A DNA stretch of 52,811 nucleotides from NCBI GenBank assembly GCA_003135135.1, contig PLDK01000002.1, positions 1,376 to 54,186 on the forward strand. Direction: 5' to 3'. The position numbers were made by a program, and so were the translations under genes. This document shows positions 6-52,811 of the stretch, in pieces. Position 1 is the first letter of the stretch, and every line of letters starts with the position of its first letter. Source of the DNA: Deltaproteobacteria bacterium. Lineage in GTDB: Bacteria > Desulfobacterota > Binatia > Binatales > Binataceae. The notes under the pieces were generated by a model, which saw nothing but the letters and a program-made list of their open reading frames with translations, did no database searches and had not been told where the DNA came from.

Positions 6-75
6 GGGTGCAGGGGGTCACCCCTGCCCAAGGAAGTGTGAAACCCACGGCGGGTTTCACATTAAATAAAGTGAT
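6..75. repeat. Dispersed palindromic repeat, copy 1 (type I)
   Basis: A short palindromic module around GGGGGTCACCCCTG (13-26) is followed by a 10-base-pair hairpin at 37-61: TGTGAAACCC, a five-base loop, then GGGTTTCACA. A closely similar copy lies at 34869-34937, and the stem differences between them are compensatory. Both copies sit just beyond the stop codon of a minus-strand gene and in the same orientation. No T-run follows the stem on the minus strand, so a standard terminator is unlikely. Confidence 0.8.
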
Positions 76-34644: not shown

Positions 34645-34692
34645 CGAATGAGAATGGCTACCCTACTGCCCGCCCCTTTTCAACGAGCAGGG

Positions 34693-34762
34693 GCAGGGGT
34701 GACCCCTGCACCCGGTATTAATGCCGCGCTCCGTTGTCGCGCGCGGCAGGGCTGAGCCCTGG
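34693..34762. repeat. Dispersed palindromic repeat (type II), copy 1
   Basis: Three modules: a 17-base palindrome GCAGGGGTGACCCCTGC (34693-34709), the spacer ACCCGGTATTAAT leading to the hairpin GCCGCGC...GCGCGCGGC (34723-34747), and a second palindrome GCAGGGCTGAGCCCTGG (34746-34762). The same modules occur at 48824-48890 (reverse orientation), 51249-51326 and, in part, 52752-52795. Confidence 0.85.
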
Positions 34763-34821: not shown

Positions 34822-34858
34822 AGTCGCGAAAAGATGCGCTGCGCAGATTTTCGCGTCT
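34822..34858. other. Long imperfect hairpin
   Basis: CGCGAAAA (34825-34832) pairs with TTTTCGCG (34848-34855). Inside, GA faces GA, then TGCGC faces GCGCA around a single T. It lies between the type II and type I repeats in the gap between pheA and accA. Function unknown. Confidence 0.6.
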
Positions 34859-34868
34859 TCTCACTACT

Positions 34869-34937
34869 GGGTGCAGGGGTCACCCCTGCCCAAGGAGGTG
34901 CGGAACCCACGGTGGGTTCCGCATTCAATTAAGTGAA
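34869..34937. repeat. Dispersed palindromic repeat, copy 2 (type I)
   Basis: Closely similar to 6-75. The hairpin here reads TGCGGAACCC, a five-base loop, then GGGTTCCGCA. Two stem positions differ from copy 1 and both partners have changed, so pairing is kept. It lies just past the accA stop, as copy 1 lies just past the DUF4911 stop. Confidence 0.85.
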
Positions 34938-34940
34938 TTG

Positions 34941-35867
34941 CTAATCGATCGAACGATCGCTCTGCGCCCTGCCGCGCGTCAGATACCGCGATCCCATCGC
35001 GGCGAACTTCCGCTCGCGCGCCCGGCGCAATTCCGCCGGCTTCAGCTTGACCAGCTGCTCCAGATGCCGTGCGAGCGCCGCGCCGATCAGATGCGCCGCT
35101 TCGGCGGGCGCGGTATGCGCTCCGCCGGCCGGCTCGGGCACGATCTCGTCGATCAATCCCAGCTCCAGCAAATCGGGCGCCGACAACTTCAACGCCGCGG
35201 CCGCCGCCGCAACATTCTCCTCGCCGCCCGCACGCCACAAAATCGCCGCGCATCCTTCCGGCGTGATCACCGAGTAGCACGCGTTCTCCTGCATCAGGAC
35301 CGCGTTGGCCACTCCCAGCGCCAGCGCGCCTCCCGAACCGCCCTCGCCTATCACGCACGCGACGGTGGGGACGGTCAGCCGCGCCATCAGCTCCAGGTTG
35401 CGCGCGATCGCCTCGATCTGCCCGCGCTCCTCCGCGCCAACCCCGGACTCACCGCCCTGCGTGTCTATCAACGTGATTATCGGTAGCCCAAATCGCTCCG
35501 CCAGCTCATAAACGCGCGCCGCCTTGCGATAGCCCTCGGGCAGCGGCTTGCCGAAATTGCGCTTGATTCGCTCGGGGGTCGAGCGGCCCCGCTGATGGCC
35601 CACGACGGCGACCGCCCGACGTCCGAAATAGGCGAGCCCCGCCACGATCGCGGCGTCGTCAGCGAAGCGCCGGTCGCCATGTATCTCGATAAAGTCGCGC
35701 ATCAGCAAGTCGATGTAATCGAGCGTCTGCGGCCGATTGGGATGGCGCGCCAGGCGCACGCGCTCGATCGCGCTCGGCGGCTCCGGCCCCGGCGGCGGAG
35801 CTGTTGCGATCTCAATCGCGCGACTTTTCGCGCCGCGCGCCTTATTTCCGTTCGAATTGCCTTTCAA
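34941..35867 (-). CDS. accA: Acetyl-CoA carboxylase carboxyltransferase subunit alpha (divergent)
   Basis: A 308-residue crotonase-fold protein matching AccA: ERVRLARHPNRPQTLDYIDLL, FIEIHGDRRFADD, HQRGR, RRNFG-type KRNFGKPLPEGYRKA, and IGEGGSGGALALGVAN. It should transfer a carboxyl group from biotin carrier to acetyl-CoA with AccD. The usual DTPGAYPG stretch reads DTQGGESG here (about 135-142), an unusual change in a conserved loop near the active site. Neither accD nor accB/accC is nearby. The start overlaps the miaA stop by four bases (ATGA), so mutL, miaA and accA are translationally coupled. Confidence 0.9.
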   Translation of the reverse strand: MKGNSNGNKARGAKSRAIEIATAPPPGPEPPSAIERVRLARHPNRPQTLDYIDLLMRDFIEIHGDRRFADDAAIVAGLAYFGRRAVAVVGHQRGRSTPERIKRNFGKPLPEGYRKAARVYELAERFGLPIITLIDTQGGESGVGAEERGQIEAIARNLELMARLTVPTVACVIGEGGSGGALALGVANAVLMQENACYSVITPEGCAAILWRAGGEENVAAAAAALKLSAPDLLELGLIDEIVPEPAGGAHTAPAEAAHLIGAALARHLEQLVKLKPAELRRARERKFAAMGSRYLTRGRAQSDRSID

Positions 35868-48596: not shown

Positions 48597-48822
48597 AAGA
48601 TTCTCCCCTGGGGGCGCCGGTTAGTTGGTATTGAAGCAATGAAGCAATCGAAACGGAAAAAAAAGCCTGCGGCGGCAACCCCTGTCCTCTCGATGCGGAC
48701 ACTACGATGGAAGCCAAACCGAGGCAAGCCACGCCTCCGCATTTGAATCTATAATTCTGCTTACCTTCTTCTCTCCTCACTCATGTTTCTAACAGGCCGT
48801 CAGGCCGCATCTTTGTTTTAAC

Positions 48823-48890
48823 ATTGGGTGCAGTGGCCGCGCGCGACAACGGAGCGCGGCCTTAACGGTGGGTGCAGGGCTTAGCCCTGC
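48823..48890. repeat. Dispersed palindromic repeat (type II), copy 2, reverse orientation
   Basis: Read on the minus strand it gives the order GCAGGGCTAAGCCCTGC, ACCCAC...TTAA, GCCGCGCTCCGTTG...GCGCGCGGCC, as in copies 1 and 3. It ends one base before the TATAAT at 48891. Confidence 0.85.
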
Positions 48891-50009: not shown

Positions 50010-50774
50010 ATGTTAAAACAAACCGGCACCGCCGTCGTCGAGAAACTGATAGGGGAACTTGGCGACGCGCGCAAAACCGTGCAACGCCGTGCGATCGACG
50101 AACTCGTGGCGATCGCCGCCGCAGGCAACCCAATCGTCACTGAAAAACTTCGCGACTCAATCGCCGGCGCCGATCGCCGCGTGCGATGGGCTGCTGCCTA
50201 CGCGCTGGGCCAAATCGGTGCGGGCGCGTTTGCGATGGACTGCGCGGACGCGCTGTGCGAGGCGATGTCCGACGACGACGGCGATATCAGATGGGCGGCG
50301 ACCGGCCTGATGGTCCAGCTCGGGCGCAAAAATCTTGCGCCGATTAGCGCGCGCCTGCTCAAACTCGCTGCCGATCCCGCCAGCCGCCACAACGCGCGCA
50401 AGATGGCGCTCTACTGCCTCCGCGACCTCGGTATCACCGGCCCTGACCTGCTCGCCGTCGTCGAGCGCGCCGTGCACGACTCGGATGTTCACGTGCGGCT
50501 GGCGGGGTTGGCAGTGCTGTCGCAGTTGCGCGACGCGCCGGAAGCGGCGGCGAGAATCATGCTCGGATGCCTCAAATCCGATCCCGACGCGGGCGTGCGC
50601 CGCGCGGCAGCCTCGGCGCTCGGCAATATTCAACGCGCAACCGCGGACGCGACAGCTGCGCTCGCGGCCGCGGCGGCCGACCGCTGCGACGAATCGCTGG
50701 CGCGAGCCGCGCGCGGCGCGCTCGATCGTCTGGGGAAAGACCGGCCGAAGAAAAACGGGATGGAGAAACCCTGA
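50010..50774 (+). CDS. HEAT-repeat protein
   Basis: A 254-residue alpha-solenoid made of about five to six HEAT or PBS-lyase-type repeats, such as RRVRWAAAYALGQIGAGA, GDIRWAATGLMVQLGR, VHVRLAGLAVLSQLRDA and AGVRRAAASALGNIQRA. No enzyme domain or signal peptide. Such proteins usually mediate protein binding; relatives can also be involved in cofactor attachment or phycobilin lyase reactions. It begins 25 bases after the LplA-like stop and its stop overlaps the next start by one base (TGATG). Function unknown. Confidence 0.85.
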   Translation: MLKQTGTAVVEKLIGELGDARKTVQRRAIDELVAIAAAGNPIVTEKLRDSIAGADRRVRWAAAYALGQIGAGAFAMDCADALCEAMSDDDGDIRWAATGLMVQLGRKNLAPISARLLKLAADPASRHNARKMALYCLRDLGITGPDLLAVVERAVHDSDVHVRLAGLAVLSQLRDAPEAAARIMLGCLKSDPDAGVRRAAASALGNIQRATADATAALAAAAADRCDESLARAARGALDRLGKDRPKKNGMEKP

Positions 50775-51259
50775 TGGCAACGAAAGCGAAACCCATCGCG
50801 GCGAACGATCCGGCCACTCGGCTTGGCGATCCGCACGTGCGGGAGTTTGTCGCCGGCGCCCGCGTCGCCCATCTGGCAACCGCCGACGGCGCCGGCGCTC
50901 CGCACAACGTCCCGCTCTGCTACTGGTTCGACGGCGAGCGCATCTACTTCGCGATCGACGAGAAACCCAAGCGTCAAACCGGTTTGGCGCTCAAGCGGAT
51001 GCGCAATATCGCGGAAAATCCACGCGTCGCAATCGTGATCGATCACTATGAAGAAGATTGGTCGCAACTCGCGTACGTGCTGATTCGTGGACACGCCCGC
51101 GTGGTCGAAGACCCCGAAGAATACATCGGCGCGATACGTCATCTGCGCGACAAATATCTGCAGTACCGCGCGATGAGTCTGACACCGGAGAAAAATCCAA
51201 TCGTGAAGGTCGAACCGGTCAGCGTGCACGCATGGGGCGCGCGTTTCGGCAGGGGCTGA
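50774..51259 (+). CDS. PPOX-class F420-dependent oxidoreductase
   Basis: A 161-residue split-barrel flavin/F420 protein. RVAHLATADGAGAPHNVPLCYWFDGERIYFAIDEKPKR (about 29-66) and NIAENPRVAIVIDHYEEDW are characteristic of the TIGR03668-like group of PPOX F420 enzymes. It would use reduced F420 to act on an unknown substrate. The start ATG overlaps the HEAT stop by one base. The last codons (Gly-Arg-Gly) and the stop lie inside repeat copy 3. A frame extension upstream to 50567 lies in the HEAT gene and was not used. Confidence 0.9.
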   Translation: MATKAKPIAANDPATRLGDPHVREFVAGARVAHLATADGAGAPHNVPLCYWFDGERIYFAIDEKPKRQTGLALKRMRNIAENPRVAIVIDHYEEDWSQLAYVLIRGHARVVEDPEEYIGAIRHLRDKYLQYRAMSLTPEKNPIVKVEPVSVHAWGARFGRG

Positions 51260-51326
51260 CCCCTGCACCGCAGGGCTGAGCCCTGCACCCAGTGTTAACG
51301 CCGCGCTCCGTTGTCGCGCGCGGCCA
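51249..51326. repeat. Dispersed palindromic repeat (type II), copy 3
   Basis: Modules in order: GCAGGGGCTGACCCCTGC (51249-51266), GCAGGGCTGAGCCCTGC (51270-51286), ACCCAGTGTTAAC, and the GCCGCGC...GCGCGCGGC hairpin (51300-51324). The first module overlaps the end of the F420 gene. Confidence 0.88.
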
Positions 51327-51366: not shown

Positions 51367-52083
51367 ATGATTCGCGGCGTCATATTCGATCTCGACGGGA
51401 CCCTCGTCGACACCGAGCCGTTGCACTTCGCGGCCTTCAACGAGGTTTTACGGCCCGAAGGAATCGAAATCCCACTTGACGAATACTTCGCGCGGCTGAT
51501 TGGACTTAACGATCACGATTGTTTCGCCATGGTGCTGCGCGAGAATCGCAAGGACGCAGGCGAGGAACATATCGCGGGCCTGATGGCGCGCAAGACCACG
51601 GTCTATCAAGCGATGATTGCGGATCGCGAGGTTCTCTACCCGGGCGCCGAGAAGTTCGCGCGCGAATGCGCGCAACGATTTCCACTGATGATCGCGACCG
51701 GTACGCTGCGCGCCGAGGCCGAAGCGATTCTTCGCCGCGCCGGACTGCGCGAGTTGTTTCTCGACATTATCGCGGCGGAGGACGTCGCGCGCGGCAAGCC
51801 CGAGCCCGACGGTTTCATCGCGGCGCTTGGGCGGCTTGGATCTATCCTTCGGCCGCGCGATCCGATCCGGGCCGACGAATGCATCGCGGTCGAGGACACG
51901 CGGGCCGGAATCGAGGCGGCGCATCGCGCGGGCATGAAAGTGATAGCGCTATGCCATAGCGCGGCGGCGGCCGACCTCGCGGCGGCCGACGTCGTGCGCG
52001 ATTCGATTTCCGGGCTGGACCTCGACGAGATTTTGCGCGCCCTTTCGAGCAGCGGGTCGAAAAAAAGCATAGGAGCACGATGA
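51367..52083 (+). CDS. HAD-superfamily phosphatase/phosphomutase
   Basis: A 238-residue HAD protein close to beta-phosphoglucomutase and related phosphatases. Motif I is FDLDGTLVDTEPLH (Asp8 and Asp10), with a helical cap up to about 80, motif II in IATGTLRAEAEAIL, motif III GKPEPDGF and motif IV AVEDTRAGIEAA. The start ATG at 51367 lies after repeat copy 3; a frame extension to 51292 would pass through the repeat and is rejected. Its stop overlaps the GST start (ATGA). Substrate unknown. Confidence 0.9.
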   Translation: MIRGVIFDLDGTLVDTEPLHFAAFNEVLRPEGIEIPLDEYFARLIGLNDHDCFAMVLRENRKDAGEEHIAGLMARKTTVYQAMIADREVLYPGAEKFARECAQRFPLMIATGTLRAEAEAILRRAGLRELFLDIIAAEDVARGKPEPDGFIAALGRLGSILRPRDPIRADECIAVEDTRAGIEAAHRAGMKVIALCHSAAAADLAAADVVRDSISGLDLDEILRALSSSGSKKSIGAR

Positions 52084-52751
52084 TGGCGGCAAAGCTGTAC
52101 CAATTTCTCGGCAGCCCATTCTGCGCCAAGGCGCGCAAGCTGCTCGCGTTCAAGGGCGTCGATTTCGAAGTCGTCGAGGTTGACTACCTGGAGCGCAAGG
52201 AATTGCTGATCGCCTCGGGGCAGATAATGGTGCCGGCGGTCACGCTCGAGGGCGACAAGACGATCGTCGATTCCGCGGCAATCGCGCTGCGACTCGAGGA
52301 GCTTTATCCCGAGCCGACGATTTTCCCCTCTGGATGGCGCGGGATGCATCTCGTGCTCGCCGATTACATCGACAACCAACTCGAGGACGCGCTGTATCGC
52401 GTCGCGCTGGCCGACGAACTCGCGATTCACGTTCGGGAGGGTGCGGATCGCGCCGCGTTATGGCGTCTGATTCGCGAGCGCAAGTACGGCGCGGGTTTTG
52501 TCGATCAAACTATCTCGGAGCATCCAGCCAACTGGGAACGCGCGCGCGCCGCCCTGGCGCCGTTCGAGGAGCAACTGGCGAGCATGCCGTTTCTGACCGG
52601 CAGGATCGGGCTGGCGGATTTCGCGCTCTATGGCCAGTTGTTCTATCTGGCGTTCACGGGCGAATTGAAAATCCCCGCCGACATGAAAAATCTGCGCGCG
52701 TTTTTCGGACGAGTCGATCGGATCAGCTCAGTGCTCGAAGAGCAGGGGTGA
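52080..52751 (+). CDS. Glutathione S-transferase-family protein
   Basis: A 223-residue protein. The N-terminal thioredoxin-like domain has YQFLGSPFCAKARKLLAFKGVDFE (about 6-29) with a Cys in place of the usual Ser or Tyr, then MVPAVTLEGDKTIVDSAAIALRLEE (about 60-84), which includes the cis-Pro and the glutathione-contacting Asp-Ser. The helical C-terminal domain ends with MPFLTGRIGLADFALYGQL. It probably conjugates or reduces small molecules. The first ATG overlaps the HAD stop; AGGAG lies four bases upstream of it and seven of the second ATG, which may be the true start. Repeat copy 4 begins right after the stop. Confidence 0.88.
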   Translation: MMAAKLYQFLGSPFCAKARKLLAFKGVDFEVVEVDYLERKELLIASGQIMVPAVTLEGDKTIVDSAAIALRLEELYPEPTIFPSGWRGMHLVLADYIDNQLEDALYRVALADELAIHVREGADRAALWRLIRERKYGAGFVDQTISEHPANWERARAALAPFEEQLASMPFLTGRIGLADFALYGQLFYLAFTGELKIPADMKNLRAFFGRVDRISSVLEEQG

Positions 52752-52811
52752 GCAGGGCTGAGCCCTGCACCCACCCTTAAGGCCAGCCGCCGTTGGCGGC
52801 GGCATGAAGGA
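52752..52811. repeat. Dispersed palindromic repeat (type II), copy 4, partial
   Basis: GCAGGGCTGAGCCCTGC (52752-52768), then ACCCACCCTTAAGG and a different hairpin GCCGCCGTTGGCGGC (52786-52800). The second hairpin replaces the GCCGCGCTCC one of other copies but has the same position and the same loop base pattern. It runs to the window end and may be cut. Confidence 0.75.

Follow-up and report, generated by a model that had tools for sequence, protein, structure and literature searches.

Modular palindromic repeats of the genus Binatus and their hairpins behind stop codons

Two hairpins in the window and the arrays that contain them

The window, the whole stretch of 52,811 nucleotides that was analysed, comes from an uncultured soil bacterium, probably of the genus Binatus in the lineage Candidatus Binatota, Binatia, Binatales, Binataceae, and carries two copies of a long intergenic hairpin, at positions 6-75 and 34869-34937. 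Their stems differ at two positions, and at both the partner base has changed too. This raises the question of whether the pairing is under selection, and of what places such a hairpin behind a gene. Both copies are present in the own genome (G000; relatives and contigs carry G and L numbers) where the first-pass annotation had located them. They are 86% identical over 64 ungapped bases and, on each strand, none of 200 shuffles folds equally well. The stem of copy 1 is formed by TGTGAAACCC (37-46) and GGGTTTCACA (52-61), that of copy 2 by TGCGGAACCC (34899-34908) and GGGTTCCGCA (34914-34923).

These stems belong to a module that we call T, which occupies positions 32-76 in copy 1 (with the loop at 47-51 and an AT-rich tail) and positions 34892-34938 in copy 2, both on the plus strand. 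As had been noticed, the two hairpins lie in the same orientation behind the stops of minus-strand genes: the first T module faces the stop codon at 94-96 of a DUF4911 gene and the second faces the stop at 34941-34943 of an accA-like gene. The distance to the stop had also been given as equal, which is wrong, because the spacers measure 32 and 17 nt. Each T is accompanied by a C hairpin on the plus strand, at 7-29 (GGTGCAGGGGGTCACCCCTGCCC) and at 34870-34891. Both modules of copy 1 were delimited by reading, by folding and from an alignment of 31 copies (A1), the C hairpin of copy 2 by folding and from A1, and its T module from A1.

Palindromic modules are strung together into arrays, and the T hairpin stands at one end of them. 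The simplest full array, S-C-T, measures 105-114 nt (36 distinct examples). Read in the sense of the gene, the stop codon and a short spacer are usually followed by the T hairpin (9 bp), the linker CYTCC, the C hairpin, optional modules, the S hairpin and GTTAG. The optional inner modules are B, D, E and F, and S or T is absent from many arrays; an S directly upstream was seen in 24 of the 82 own copies and, among those of relatives and phage contigs, in 32 of 84. Some arrays start with an inverted C, as at window position 34693. Module B, which has diverged little, keeps two adjacent internal G.A mismatches in 36-37 of 37 copies. Its foot, in 71 readings, is GTAGTC (33), ATAGTC (4) or GCAGTC (1), the other 33 being mostly B modules read on the opposite strand; the GTAG tag was found for module B only and is missing from the S-C-T consensus. 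A further repeat type, TTCGCTGCGCTCAGGATGACA, stands just upstream of several S modules (L170, L174 and other S loci). Two-base N gaps of the G000 assembly fall inside several arrays (for example C5:1374-1375), so that arrays may be misjoined. When the S places of the own genome were set against its T places (at least 83), inspection by eye showed no case in which S and T enclose a gene, as an autonomous version would.

The window holds several of these modules. Near the start of the second array lies an inverted C module (34693-34709, minus strand) within 34691-34717, a segment that forms with 34865-34891 a 27-nt inverted repeat of 96% identity. It is followed by a D module, a GC-rich hairpin (34723-34747, minus strand) with a similar module at the orthologous site of G001, and by a B module with the two adjacent G.A mismatches and GTAG directly before it (34826-34854, plus strand). 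A third array, S-D-C, spans 48787-48890 on the plus strand and consists of an S module with a GGCC-GTCA-GGCC stem-loop (48787-48811), a D module (48835-48861) inside the arm of a C, and the C variant GCAGGGCTTAGCCCTGC (48874-48890), which closes the array. This D is flanked by direct repeats of GGGTGCAG at 48826-48833 and 48870-48877, which suggests that modules are inserted or exchanged where short repeats occur. On the minus strand, C-type and D modules at 51250-51324 cover the end of a plus-strand gene (50774-51259) whose TGA stop lies in the loop of the C-type hairpin (51250-51267), so that the repeat seems to supply the stop; at 52752-52806, also on the minus strand, C-type and D-type modules directly follow the stop of the plus-strand gene at 52080-52751.

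A BLAST search of the own genome listed 40 places at E ≤ 5.4e-16, and a covariance model built from A1 (R1), whose E-values are rough, found at least 83 at E ≤ 4.3e-6, some of them partial; since 150 of 1989 candidates were scored, the latter number is a minimum. At E ≤ 0.001, with 150 candidates scored per genome, R1 matched 7 of 29 genomes, namely the own and six congeneric ones, and none of the 22 from other genera. Among the candidates scored, the copy number ranged widely, with 6 R1 matches in G003, 11 in G004, 118 in G000 and 129 in G002. A pattern for the S module gave 1-45 matches per genome in the seven genomes of the genus (reversed control, 0-1), and in 33 genomes from other genera of the family three single matches against nine in the reversed control. 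Two pattern matches in Streptomyces (L149 and L169) were rejected as family members because the complete T hairpin pattern found no match in them. Among the genomes searched, the repeat family is limited to the genus. Rfam models gave no match at the gathering score in the window or in 11 loci, and no description of such repeats in Binatus or Binatota was found among the literature matches listed.

Position relative to genes, turnover and phage contigs

With moderate confidence, we read the family as a modular palindromic repeat that is specific to the genus, interspersed in the genome and most likely mobile but non-autonomous, in the manner of BOX and BIME elements; its hairpins would be delivered to mRNA 3' ends. 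Such an element would spread as DNA, its folded strand would be recognised at the hairpin ends by a putative enzyme, and modules would be exchanged at short shared stretches. A T hairpin, once in place, would form part of the 3' UTR of the gene upstream and might protect or trim the end of its mRNA. Copy number, modular composition, confinement to the genus among the genomes searched, compensated pair changes, the loops of S, oriented placement behind stops, occurrence on phage contigs and turnover between species speak for this reading. Against it count the searches that found no mover, the empty sites without exact boundaries, the tandem pairs with T in the opposite sense, and the exceptions described below (L183, several host loci of G004, a shortened left arm and site L111). 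The main rival, a host 3'-UTR element, may be true at the same time. According to this reading, T behind the stop stabilises, processes or terminates the mRNA and is retained by selection, spread being secondary; we regard it as possible rather than probable.

The orientation of T and its short spacing behind stops favour such a host element. With home-made gene calls, in which some short genes were missed, the T-side gene reads toward T in 55 of 79 own copies, at a distance of up to 60 nt in 51 of them, but away from it in the other 24, which counts against a host element. On the non-T side there is no preference (32 toward, 39 away). In the relatives the T-side gene reads toward T in 51 of 69 copies, and 46 of the 51 are within 60 nt. 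These counts cover 79 of 82 own copies and 72 of 75 copies from relatives, the rest being overlapped by a called gene. Between tandem genes, T faces the upstream stop in 26 pairs versus 7 in the own genome and in 31 versus 8 in the relatives. A recount with another motif and tighter merging gave 23:4 and 29:10, and 10:2 in G004, that is 62 of 78 pairs in sense and 16 in the opposite direction; it skipped 9, 11 and 0 matches, and looser merging had given 23:4, 30:10 and 10:2. The counts given first, for the own genome and for the relatives, cover largely the same sites and cannot be taken as independent. Of 106 hairpins whose upstream gene is in sense, 90 lie at most 60 nt behind its stop. The bias in tandem pairs is informative because mere tolerance of 3' regions cannot produce it. 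Several S elements at host loci of G004 adjoin a gene called on the other strand. The transcript end, which had been proposed as the likely site of action, is supported as a location; the constraint may act on RNA, on folded single-stranded DNA or on both.

A host element would also fit the covariation of the T stem described below and the strong folding of the window copies on the gene strand. Against it stand the match to no Rfam family, an example from G004 that folds little better than its shuffles (31 of 200 equally good), and the lack of a U-run after T in the gene direction, where ACTTCCTTGG or CCTCCTTGG follows as read from the sequence. On this last ground, T does not fit an intrinsic terminator.

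The phage sequences bear on both readings. Phage genes (terminase, portal, head or tail) are present on three IMG/VR contigs that contain the element, and we take these contigs to be Mu-like. On two of them the terminase stop is followed by T-C-S, and one of these (L182) also has a T after the portal stop; in L183 the T end faces a gene start. A prophage of G004 with terminase and portal genes (L228, G004:C38:65404-85403) contains eight S elements, all in one orientation. In its eight gaps of more than 150 nt, inspected by eye, an intact T-like hairpin stands shortly after the stop in six, a disrupted one in one and none in one. Several intergenic gaps of L228 are 300-900 nt long and filled with hairpin modules, which is unusual for compact phage operons. 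The T-like hairpins behind successive prophage genes, like those behind two neighbouring genes of L182, favour a host 3'-end element, but a strong terminator is unlikely to stand between phage genes read in the same direction, as these elements do.

Turnover between species also counts against a host element. The flanks of orthologous sites are mostly 84-95% alike, and from species to species the modules at one site are gained, lost or swapped. One orthologous site has E-D-C-T in one species and S-C-T in another; elsewhere a B-containing array (TGCGGAACCC) corresponds to S-C-T (CGCGAAACCC), or the T stem differs (TGTGAAACCC versus TGCGGAACCC). The whole array is absent from G005 at one orthologous site, G001 is without T at the second site of the window, and both are without the S-D-C array at 48787-48890. 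At orthologous site L111, the right arm of T has an extra base and a mismatch. Comparisons with empty sites (about 88-93% identical, some native bases replaced) revealed no target-site duplication or exact insertion boundary.

Loops of the S hairpin and pairing in the T hairpin

A bolder version of the mobile-element reading is that the repeat represents a new class, with the unlike ends T (GRAACC core) and S (d(cGNAg)/d(cGNNAg)), which would be read as folded single-stranded DNA by a non-Y1 enzyme, inserted in orientation behind stops and carried by phages between Binatus hosts. We put this forward tentatively. The stems of S are GGGC, GGCC, GGGAC or GGTGC with their partners, and the loops vary. 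In RNA, the tetraloop rule is GNRA, and GTCA and GCCA fall outside it. Of 179 matches to a pattern that fixes the outer GG/CC, 150 were listed, and 133 of these have a loop closed by C-G (GNA in 110, GNNA in 23); in ten others the stem is broken, and seven carry a different loop. DNA mini-hairpins in which a GNA or GNNA loop sits on G-C pairs are extraordinarily stable (PMC4686876). Taken together, the loops lean toward a constraint that acts on folded single-stranded DNA of the S-to-T strand, and this obedience to a DNA rule again speaks against a host RNA element. Folding energies were nearly equal on the two strands and did not separate them. Counts of G-U pairs by strand (3 in B and 11 in D for the S-to-T strand, versus 5 and 8) showed no clear asymmetry, and the signal from T was mixed.

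The stem of T had been described as 10 bp long but is effectively of 9 bp, since the outermost pair is not conserved among the 82 own copies (T-A in 52, C-A in 16, G-A in one, gap or N in 13). In these copies, which represent 82 of the 83 R1 places and were taken with no arm filter, 5 of the 713 cells of the inner nine pairs are unpaired and 6 are G-U. A further 25 cells are gap or N, chiefly owing to a deletion in nine own copies by which the left arm is shortened. In A1, 96.4% of cells pair and two pairs are doubly changed. The count of changed pairs in A1 does not exceed that of shuffles (214 of 500 reach the observed value), but the doubly changed cells (10 versus 2.1) and the covariation score do.

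A wider set comprised 90 distinct T hairpins in gene sense, for which the AACC/GGTT core and the linker were fixed by the search and the strands were merged; an earlier run had 92, with at least one place counted on both strands. In this set, the four pairs outward from the core were Watson-Crick in 88, 87, 82 and 84 hairpins and the inner pair in 86. The means of 1000 shuffles in the same order were 53.9, 87.0, 45.7, 58.4 and 68.7, and the maxima 66, 87, 60, 66 and 76. The four variable pairs reach 82-88, against shuffle means of 46-69 and maxima of 60-76, and covary far more than shuffles do. At the fifth outward pair the number is 32 versus a shuffle mean of 39.6, and pairing stops after nine pairs. 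An arm pattern that fixes several stem letters selected 146 of 166 copies. In this set the two variable pairs of the own-type T show each of the four possible combinations, every one of them Watson-Crick or G-U, and the loop has 26 types; because of the fixed letters, the count was repeated on the 82 own copies. For the relatives, the search mostly used a pattern in which the greater part of the left arm of T is fixed, and their figures are "at least" figures among the matches listed.

These data bear on the improbable view that structure is not selected: bases that changed in pairs would then reflect inherited differences between subfamilies or would have arisen together by template switching in a quasi-palindrome. 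The T arms are of few, common types (three arm pairs account for 37, 29 and 29 of the 146 copies), arrays recombine, and copies related by descent are not independent, so that counts of cells overstate the number of independent events. For the two window copies this objection holds: both carry common arm types of a copied repeat, and their difference could be inherited. The claim that covariation indicates selection on the pairing therefore does not follow from these two copies alone, but it is supported by the 90 T hairpins and the 82 own copies. Two subfamilies alone do not explain the covariation of T pairs. The four combinations at the two variable pairs, the end of pairing after the ninth pair, and the compensated differences at further pairs in distant species, among them G-C to C-G, all argue for selection on pairing; in G004 both outer and inner T pairs are different and again matched. 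These observations also argue for selection on pairing. Template switching is further opposed by module B, where the two mismatches that template-switch repair should remove are retained, although B is little diverged. The broad collection of copies that the first-pass annotation had called for thus gives the result on which it had staked its case: stem pairs are kept, and loops, in the set chosen by the arm pattern, vary much more.

Search for a mover and comparison with known systems

The transposase domain Y1_Tnp (PF01797) had no match in the own genome or in five other genomes of the genus, while 6 of 14 control genomes matched; of the seven genus genomes, only G004 has one. This gene, similar to REP-associated tyrosine transposases (L185, G004:C80, 1456-1836; NF047646, 77.5 bits and thus just under the cut-off of 80), is flanked by GTAG hairpins of another sequence and not by the repeats studied here. 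A RAYT was therefore rejected as the mover, Y1 having been found in one of seven genomes only and that gene having its own GTAG hairpins. In a search for Y2 transposases, no control genome gave a match, so that its outcome carries no weight. An integron-like attC site, whose end motifs RYYYAAC and GTTRRRY are complementary, is very improbable: the repeats resemble it in lying behind stops in one orientation, in keeping structure over sequence and in a 3' GTTAG partly like GTTRRRY, but no complementary RYYYAAC was seen by eye at the T end, the integron integrase model passed its cut-off in none of the seven genomes (partial matches below it occurred there and in all 14 controls), and the repeats of the window have ordinary metabolic genes as neighbours.

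The repeat offers a clear case, in an uncultured phylum, of a fold that is kept while its letters change, and both its loop rule and its position rule can be checked. Two questions become testable: which activity moves palindromic repeats in genomes without a RAYT match, and whether mRNAs obtain ready-made 3' ends from such repeats.

Several known systems resemble it in part. Of the traits of MITEs, which have defined ends with empty sites and a helper transposase, the analysis found empty sites without exact ends, and six of the seven genomes gave no Y1 match. Another comparison is with miniature elements derived from IS200/IS605 (PMC6006769). Such elements have two unlike hairpins near their ends and are recognised in a strand-specific way; the Binatus repeat is like them in its unlike end hairpins, in having no long terminal inverted repeat seen in S-C-T, and in the strand-specific recognition proposed here; it differs in the absence of a Y1 match in six of the seven genomes and in that no target sequence was shown. 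CGTC-tagged REPs, palindromic families that seemingly are without a dedicated transposase (PMC3733652), differ in their tag, since in Binatus CGTC is present only inside one S stem-loop variant and not at an end.

REPs and BIMEs are high-copy extragenic palindromes arranged in mosaics, some of which supply stop codons (PMC2817692, PMC3733652). The Binatus arrays are likewise intergenic palindromic mosaics, present in both orientations and near stop codons, and the foot of module B resembles that of GTAG REPs. They differ from the REP/RAYT system in that S and T have no GTAG, no Y1 was found in the own genome and the two ends are unlike hairpins. Since the tag is missing from S and T, and the genome gave no transposase match, we do not file the repeat as a GTAG REP.

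The BOX elements of Streptococcus pneumoniae are composites with boxA and boxC at the ends and a variable number of boxB inside; they are nearly limited to close species, have a strong predicted fold, are over-represented between convergent genes and are judged parasitic by the authors (PMC3049150). Modularity, narrow host range and preference for gene ends are common to both families. Arrays of the form S...C-T with B, D, E and F optional recall the fixed ends and optional inner modules of BOX, but many arrays are without S or T. The modules themselves differ by their description; moreover, in most tandem pairs the Binatus T points at the stop of the gene upstream, the S end is a GNA/GNNA mini-hairpin, and the element occurs on phage contigs. 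On balance, we judge the Binatus repeat to be most likely a variant of the BOX/BIME-like repeats.
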